Of a stretch of DNA of 64,000 nucleotides, positions 28,027 to 30,024 are shown one piece after another. The notes below the pieces were generated by a model. The model saw only the letters and a list, made by a program, of their open reading frames with translations. It was not told the DNA's origin and did no database searches. The DNA is from Parvibaculaceae bacterium PLY_AMNH_Bact1 (GTDB lineage Bacteria > Pseudomonadota > Alphaproteobacteria > Parvibaculales > Parvibaculaceae). The translations under genes and the position numbers were made by a program. Numbering within the stretch: the first letter of the stretch is position 1; every line of letters begins with the position of its first letter. The stretch spans positions 1,116,001-1,180,000 of the forward strand of contig CP126168.1 in assembly GCA_032881465.1 (NCBI GenBank), read 5' to 3'.

Positions 28027-29964
28027 TCAGCTTTCTCTCTGGTTTGCACTCTGGAACAGCCGCTTGATGGGTTTGAGAAGGGCCGGCCGTTTGATCTCGC
28101 GTTTTCCGTAGGCCTGCGTAATCCGATCAAACACGATGGCGAGCGCCACAATGGCGATGCCTGCAGTGAGGCCCTGTCCCACATCAAGCCGCTGAATACC
28201 GAGAAGCACCTGTTCGCCAAGTCCCCGCGCACCAATCATGGAAGCGATCACCACCATGGAGAGCGCCATCATAATGGTTTGGTTGATGCCCGCCATTATG
28301 TTGGGGAGCGCTAAAGGCATTTCGATATCGATGAGTTGTTGCCAGCGTTCAGCGCCCAGGTCAGCGGCCACCTCCGTAAAGGCGTCCGCCACCAGACGGA
28401 TACCAAGATCTGTCAAACGGATGAGCGGCGGTGTCGCATAGATGACCGTGGCAAACACCGCAGGCACCTTCCCCAGTCCAAAGAGCATCAGTGCCGGGAT
28501 GAGATAGACAAAGCTTGGCAGCGTCTGCATGGCATCGAGCACCGGCAGGGAGAAGCGCCTGACGCGAGGGAGTTTGGCAAGCATCACCCCAAAAGGAATA
28601 CCTATCACGAGGGCGAGCAGCACGGAGACAGTGGTGAGCGCCAGTGTCTGCATAGCGAGATCCCACAGGCCTAAAACGCCAACGGAGAAAAGCGCGAGGG
28701 CGAAGCCGACGGGTGCCCAGAGGCTGCCCGTCGCGTGCCATCCAACGACCGCAGCGATAACAAGCACCAGCCACCAGGGCAGAGCTTGCAACCCATCCTC
28801 CATGAGAAGAATGAGTTTCAAGACCTGATTGCCTGCCGCTTCAAAGAGGCCGCCATAACTGGCCACAAATTCTTCGATCCACTCATTGACCCAGGCGGAG
28901 ATAGGAAAACGCCATTCCTGCGGGAAGGAGGAGGCTTCTTCTTCGCTGTGGACACCGACAATGCGCGCTGCAATCTCAGGAGAGACCCACTCCCGCCAAA
29001 CGTCAGGGCGTGTGTCCAGGAAGTTCCGGGCAGCGTCCCGTGTGGTGGCTTCCTTATTGGCATTGAGGAAGGCAAGTGCCTCACTCGCCATGGCGGATGT
29101 GGTTTGATATCGTTTGAGGAACGCGATTACCTCAGGAGCCTCGGCTGCGAATTTTGTGTTCACCCCGATGGAGACTTCCGTCGTGGGGTAGGCGGTGGGC
29201 GGCGCATTGTCCGGATCGTCACTGAACGCCTTCCACGATTCTCTTGAATAGGGGGGCTCTTCCAGCATCACCATGTCATAGCTACCAAGCACCCATGTGG
29301 GACCCCAATGATAGGCCACGATGGGTTTGCCCCGCGTATAGGCCGACGCAATGGCAGCGGCAAGCGAAGACGCGGCACCTGGGCGGAAGTTCGTGAAGGT
29401 CTCATCGAGTCCGTAGGCACGCAGCTTCGCGCTGTTTAAGAGCTCGCACTGCCACCCAAGAATACAATTGTAGAAACGACCTTTGCTGGGTTCTTCCGGG
29501 TCGGTGAAGAGAGACGCGTAGCGCGGCAGGTCATAGACAGATTTGAGCTCAGGGGCCGCCGCTTCAATGCCCCTTTCTGGGTCTCCTTCCACCAGATAGC
29601 GCGGCACATACCAGCCCTGCACGGCGTCCGGGAAATTGATGCCGAGATCAATCACATCGCCGCGCGCAAGAGCGGCTGTCCAGGGTTCCACCAGATTGTC
29701 CCGCCAGACTTCCATCAGCACATCAATGTCACCGCGTCCAAGGCCCGTCACCAGGGGCAGCGTGGAGCCCGGAATGGCATCGGTCTCACAGCCATAGCCT
29801 TCTTCAAGGATGATCCGCGCCACCTCATTGTGAAAGGCGGCGGAATCCCAGTCGAGCCCCCCAAACATGATCGGGCGATCAATGTCGCAGCTCTCGGCAT
29901 GGGCTGAGGGTGTGAGCCAGAAGAGGCTGACAAAGAGAAGGCTAAAAAGTCGGAGAAAAGAGAT
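28027..29964 (-). CDS. Betaine-type ABC transporter: fused binding protein and permease
   Basis: Fusion of a ProX/OpuAC-like substrate-binding domain (about 25-345) and a ProW/OpuAB-like permease (about 370-645). Binding-domain features include FGGLDWDSAAFHNEVARI and ILGWQCELLNSAKL; the permease has multiple membrane segments and an EAA-type loop EVAADLGAERWQQLIDIEMP. The first ATG (29868) lies inside the mature binding domain. In the same frame upstream a complete signal peptide is encoded, ending LFWLTPSAHA before ESCD, with a basic n-region (SFLRLF); the only plausible start is ATC at 29964, 33 bases after a good promoter. No in-frame ATG, GTG or TTG exists before the signal. No ATPase gene is adjacent, so the complex must borrow one. 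Ligand (glycine betaine, choline or proline) is inferred. Confidence 0.8.
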   Translation of the reverse strand: MSFLRLFSLLFVSLFWLTPSAHAESCDIDRPIMFGGLDWDSAAFHNEVARIILEEGYGCETDAIPGSTLPLVTGLGRGDIDVLMEVWRDNLVEPWTAALARGDVIDLGINFPDAVQGWYVPRYLVEGDPERGIEAAAPELKSVYDLPRYASLFTDPEEPSKGRFYNCILGWQCELLNSAKLRAYGLDETFTNFRPGAASSLAAAIASAYTRGKPIVAYHWGPTWVLGSYDMVMLEEPPYSRESWKAFSDDPDNAPPTAYPTTEVSIGVNTKFAAEAPEVIAFLKRYQTTSAMASEALAFLNANKEATTRDAARNFLDTRPDVWREWVSPEIAARIVGVHSEEEASSFPQEWRFPISAWVNEWIEEFVASYGGLFEAAGNQVLKLILLMEDGLQALPWWLVLVIAAVVGWHATGSLWAPVGFALALFSVGVLGLWDLAMQTLALTTVSVLLALVIGIPFGVMLAKLPRVRRFSLPVLDAMQTLPSFVYLIPALMLFGLGKVPAVFATVIYATPPLIRLTDLGIRLVADAFTEVAADLGAERWQQLIDIEMPLALPNIMAGINQTIMMALSMVVIASMIGARGLGEQVLLGIQRLDVGQGLTAGIAIVALAIVFDRITQAYGKREIKRPALLKPIKRLFQSANQRES

Positions 29965-29996
29965 GGGAACCTACAGAGGTTGTGGAAAGTATCCCG

Positions 29997-30024
29997 ATTG
30001 TAGAGGCCCCGCAGATGCGGTCAA
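29997..30024 (-). promoter_or_regulatory. Sigma70-type promoter of the fused ABC gene
   Basis: On the minus strand, TTGACC and TACAAT are separated by 16 bases, each with five of six consensus matches. Transcription would start near 29990, leaving a leader of about 25 bases before ATC 29964, with AGG five bases before that codon. Confidence 0.6.

Follow-up and report, generated by a model that had tools for sequence, protein, structure and literature searches.

A conserved AUC codon very likely starts the gene of a fused, betaine-type transporter protein

A gene for a fused transporter protein on the minus strand of the window (the whole 64,000-nucleotide stretch of DNA analyzed) very likely begins at a real, conserved AUC start codon. 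The first-pass annotation had read a signal peptide ahead of the first ATG of this gene and had left two options for the ATC that precedes it: a genuine non-AUG start, or an ATG with one base wrongly sequenced. We confirmed by sequence check that ATG 29868 is the first ATG of the frame, that the 32 codons from the ATC to this ATG contain no ATG, GTG, or TTG, and that a TAG closes the frame upstream (29973..29971). After this TAG, the ATC is the only near-cognate start for the signal peptide. From the TAG, the frame reads V P I S F L R L F S L L F V S L F W L T P S A H A E S C D I D R P I M F G G, and the product made from the ATC would be (M)SFLRLFSLLFVSLFWLTPSAHA followed, after the cleavage site, by ESCD. 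The features of the locus are listed in Table 1.

Table 1. Features of the transporter gene and its upstream region, in window coordinates
Feature	Position	Strand	Basis or remark
ATC start codon	29962..29964	-	Invariant in five congeners; no canonical in-frame start before the mature domain
Signal peptide, 23 residues, cleavage motif AHA/E	29896..29964	-	Translation, codon-position variation, hydropathy
First in-frame ATG, codon 33, internal Met	29866..29868	-	ATT in G001; no Shine-Dalgarno sequence; inside the OpuAC domain
Fusion of OpuAC substrate-binding domain and BPD_transp_1 permease, whole gene	28027..29964	-	645 codons plus stop
-35 hexamer TTGACC	30019..30024	-	TTGACC or TTGACG in five ATC species, with identical 16-nt spacing
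-10 hexamer TACAAT	29997..30002	-	Invariant in five ATC species
Predicted 5' leader, ~26 nt	29965..29990	-	Transcription start inferred ~7 nt after the -10
Weak Shine-Dalgarno AGG, 5 nt before ATC	29970..29972	-	AGG in all five ATC species
Dyad AACCT-CTGT-AGGTT over the Shine-Dalgarno sequence	29968..29981	-	Core CCT-N4-AGG in all five species

The minus-strand open frame that contains the gene spans 647 codons (29970..28027). Based on Pfam matches, the encoded protein joins a betaine-type binding protein (OpuAC, PF04069, 1e-52, residues 31 to 317) to a ProW-type permease (BPD_transp_1, PF00528, 1e-25, residues 455 to 622). The permease is nearest to the choline/ProW permeases in NCBIfam, with scores under the curated cut-offs, and the fusion product is the sole OpuAC protein in the genome of the window (G000; 3.74 Mb, one contig). 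The ProU/OpuA betaine importers (ProX-ProW-ProV) likewise combine an OpuAC binding domain with a ProW-like permease, and the OpuAC domain, the BPD_transp_1 permease, and a signal peptide are all present here. Unlike in those importers, the binding domain in the window protein is fused ahead of the permease.

The description of the upstream stretch as a clean signal peptide held up in translation, in hydropathy (best 11-residue value, 2.3), and in a coding-type pattern of variation among five species. Variable columns in signal-peptide codons 2 to 24 number 12/3/19 by codon position in these species. The changes are mostly at third positions or compatible with a signal peptide, and those between the closest species pairs are mainly synonymous. 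By this pattern, the signal peptide is under coding selection. Besides the ATC, only one signal-peptide codon, TGG, is invariant across the five species. Invariance of the ATC alone is weak evidence for a start, because ATC is also the sole codon in 5 of the gene's 31 all-Ile columns.

Comparison of homologous upstream regions in relatives had been proposed along with the first-pass annotation, and we made it across seven genomes of the genus (G000 to G006, that of the window included). The ATC is conserved in five of the seven: G000, G002 and G003 (each 95% identical to G000), G001 (93%), and G004 (88%). The preceding codon is CCC or CCA and the following codon is TCT or TCC, while the ATC is constant; its surroundings differ among species (for example, CCCATCTCT and CCAATCTCC). 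None of the five has an in-frame ATG, GTG, or TTG ahead of codon 33. At the equivalent place G005 and G006 (74%) have ATG, and other genera also start at ATG, or at TTG in G008 and G012. In a maximum-likelihood tree, the five ATC species form one clade with support of 100/100, with G005 and G006 as sisters. The simplest history would be a single ATG-to-ATC change before the five species separated, retained since; descent of all five ATC species from one event is a point against the AUC reading. A frame that begins upstream of all canonical starts, at a codon one base away from AUG, and a start codon kept across species, as expected of a near-cognate start, are thus both found here.

Several other readings of the locus were weighed against an AUC start. 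A sequencing error hiding a true ATG would make MSFLRLF an ordinary beginning, and the nearest sister species do carry ATG. However, five congeneric genomes, assembled independently and with differing flanks, all carry the ATC; it is not credible that each assembly contains the same error, so that this option is excluded for practical purposes, and the other option of the first-pass annotation, a real non-AUG start, is supported. A start at ATG 29868, with the upstream stretch untranslated and the protein lacking a signal peptide, would use the first canonical codon and is what a gene caller limited to ATG, GTG, and TTG would choose. We consider it very improbable. This ATG is replaced by ATT in G001 (L004), where the first in-frame canonical start is a GTG at codon 48, and in G000 it has no Shine-Dalgarno sequence (+0.3 kcal/mol). 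Starting there would truncate the OpuAC domain, whose match begins at residue 31, and the stretch ahead of this ATG evolves like a coding signal peptide. Furthermore, an importer could make no use of a binding domain that stayed in the cytoplasm.

Translation might instead enter from an upstream start or another frame, by stop readthrough or frameshifting, and the frame is indeed open further upstream in G001 and G004. However, it is shut just upstream by TAG in G000 and G002 and by TAA in G003. Counted from the first T of TACAAT, the ATC lies 38 nt away in three species but 39 nt away in two, and this 1-nt difference indicates that the leader is not coding and excludes an upstream extension. 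The five ATC species share no canonical start, whatever the frame, from the -10 to codon 24; G000 has just an out-of-frame TTG and an out-of-frame ATG, both well within the signal peptide. The gene upstream encodes a gamma-glutamyltranspeptidase in G000 and is a different gene in G004, which makes translational coupling to it unlikely. Entry from upstream is therefore highly doubtful. A gene that has lost its start and is decaying would account for a weak Shine-Dalgarno sequence together with a non-AUG start, and would agree with the lack of any ProV-type ATPase found in the genome. Yet the frame is intact in all five ATC congeners, the promoter is invariant, and variable columns in the mature binding domain number 33/17/224 at codon positions 1/2/3 among the five species, pointing to strong purifying selection. 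Decay is very unlikely on this evidence.

For the AUC start, the surrounding signals were found as the first-pass annotation had placed them: TTGACC (30024..30019), a 16-nt spacer, TACAAT (30002..29997), the A of the ATC (29964) 33 positions beyond the last T of TACAAT, and AGG (29972..29970) 5 nt before the ATC. Pairing with the anti-Shine-Dalgarno sequence is calculated at -2.4 to -3.3 kcal/mol in the ATC species, whereas infC in G000 reaches -10.7; this weakness tells against the AUC reading. The role of the dyad that overlaps the AGG is unproven, because its fold is no stronger than that of shuffles and its motif frequency is at chance. As a leader hairpin hiding the Shine-Dalgarno sequence, it was rejected: the 5-bp stem in G000 is not stronger than those of shuffled sequences (z ~0), and G002 and G004 have lost its outer pairs. 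As a regulon operator it was likewise rejected, with 3 palindromic sites in the genome versus 4 for a control pattern. In G001, the dyad is a perfect palindrome, AACCTGCGCAGGTT, covering the Shine-Dalgarno sequence. In many of the loci from other genera of the family (L010 to L022), only a few bases separate a TATAGT-like -10 from the gene's ATG, as in L015 (CCCTATAGTTCAACCATG). The mRNAs of those loci may therefore be leaderless or nearly so, versus the 26-nt leader predicted in the window.

Taken together, the comparisons strongly indicate initiation at the AUC itself. Transcription from the gene's own TTGACC/TACAAT promoter would give an mRNA with a leader of ~26 nt, on which the AUC would be read by the ordinary fMet initiator tRNA (CAU). 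Two initiator-like tRNAs were found by pattern, both with anticodon CAT; thus, decoding of the AUC would involve a mismatch at the third position, and nothing exotic is needed. An initiator tRNA with a GAU anticodon was considered and rejected, as the initiator-like tRNAs recovered in two pattern searches all had CAT. The N-terminal signal peptide would then export the binding domain, tethered to the permease.

The likely outcome would be a transporter made at a low, IF3-sensitive level. IF3 disfavors weak third-position pairs in vitro (PMC10158994), and the conserved cvfC1 (AUU) and ccpN (AUA) starts of S. aureus yield, in poor medium, ~10% of what AUG gives (PMC13009471); from these data we infer, for the window gene, low yield and control by IF3. 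By analogy with known near-cognate starts (PMC13009471), and given the weak Shine-Dalgarno sequence, it is plausible that the AUC limits expression. A further reading, in which the AUC is a selected, IF3-responsive throttle, draws on the lineage-fixed codon and the weak, dyad-overlapped Shine-Dalgarno sequence on an exported fusion without a dedicated ATPase; we offer it tentatively, as the less probable case.

To our knowledge, only a handful of bacterial genes are known to have natural near-cognate starts, in most cases AUU or AUA behind a strong Shine-Dalgarno sequence, and the window gene adds to this small set without being a new kind of system. The closest comparison within the genome is infC, which encodes IF3. 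Its AUU/AUA start, autoregulated by IF3, is likewise near-cognate by the third base only and conserved among relatives. In this genus, infC (G000:C1:347605-348147, L113) starts at ATA, with a TAG shutting the frame just upstream, and the ATA start also occurs in congeners and other class members. It differs from the window gene in encoding a translation factor rather than a transporter, in using AUU/AUA rather than AUC, and in having a strong Shine-Dalgarno sequence, TAGGAGGG, where that of the window gene is weak. The AUU start of E. coli pcnB is described as experimentally proven (Binns and Masters 2002, cited in PMC13009471); going by that citation, pcnB is likewise a single chromosomal gene apparently held low by a near-cognate start, although the codon is AUU instead of AUC and the gene is a different one. 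In S. aureus, ribosome profiling has proven the AUU/AUA sites, whose Shine-Dalgarno sequences are extended (PMC13009471). The cvfC1 and ccpN starts resemble that of the window gene in being conserved inside a genus-level clade but differ in their extended Shine-Dalgarno sequences, and the window start is known from sequence. The window gene has no such strong or extended sequence and, being weak beside infC in this respect, is not placed in the infC/S. aureus sub-type. Its weak pairing and the overlapping dyad both set it apart from a plain repeat of those cases. A literature search that covered few subscription papers found no clear precedent for a bacterial AUC start.

A conserved AUC with a weak Shine-Dalgarno sequence, next to an ATG form in sister species, offers a natural experiment on why such starts persist. 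The weak Shine-Dalgarno sequence may itself reduce output further, or some other feature may assist it. If the throttle reading were true, a near-cognate start would control a membrane transporter without the strong Shine-Dalgarno sequence of the other conserved cases. For annotation, gene callers that allow only ATG, GTG, and TTG would remove the signal peptide and put the protein in the wrong compartment.

No ABC ATPase is encoded within 4 kb of the window gene or of five loci of the family (L031 to L034 and L108), and a search for ProV-type ATPases gave no TIGR01186 match above the cut-off in G000 to G006. Unlike ProU/OpuA-type importers, then, the window gene has no dedicated ProV/OpuAA ATPase alongside it or above the cut-off in the genus; the best-scoring ATPase candidate in G000 is PotA-like. 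By reading of the sequence, the permease retains an EAA-like loop, DLGAERWQQLIDIEMPLALP, and is therefore likely to remain functional with an ATPase whose gene lies elsewhere. The same fusion occurs in unrelated bacteria (Desulfoscipio, Roseibium, and Rhizobium) and in the alphaproteobacterial locus L065, and there an ABC ATPase lies directly downstream (L035, L036, L039, L041, and L065).

We also surveyed 800 kb of G000 against the matching stretches of G002 and G003, covering 661 non-overlapping conserved genes, for frames that stay open ahead of all canonical starts in each of the three species. The window gene had the only long upstream stretch with a third-position coding signature (34 codons; substitutions 2/2/12), which, as the sole such case among 661 genes, places its signal above chance. 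The other cases listed were two 10-codon stretches, one of them wholly within a neighboring gene. As a positive control, infC was recovered by conservation, with 29 fully conserved upstream codons, too conserved to give a third-position signal; the survey is thus able to see a near-cognate start. Apart from infC, no other convincing non-canonical start was found in the 800 kb. High-identity stretches such as those at 1067088, 1282762, and 515760 were rejected, as they lack the coding third-position pattern and resemble conserved leaders or overlap with neighbors. From the first survey, a frame of ~1,180 codons at G000:C1:1331576-1335115, in which 19 conserved codons precede the first canonical start (substitutions 3/4/8; GCRLIYPATLSSENEAVTE), is a weak second candidate.
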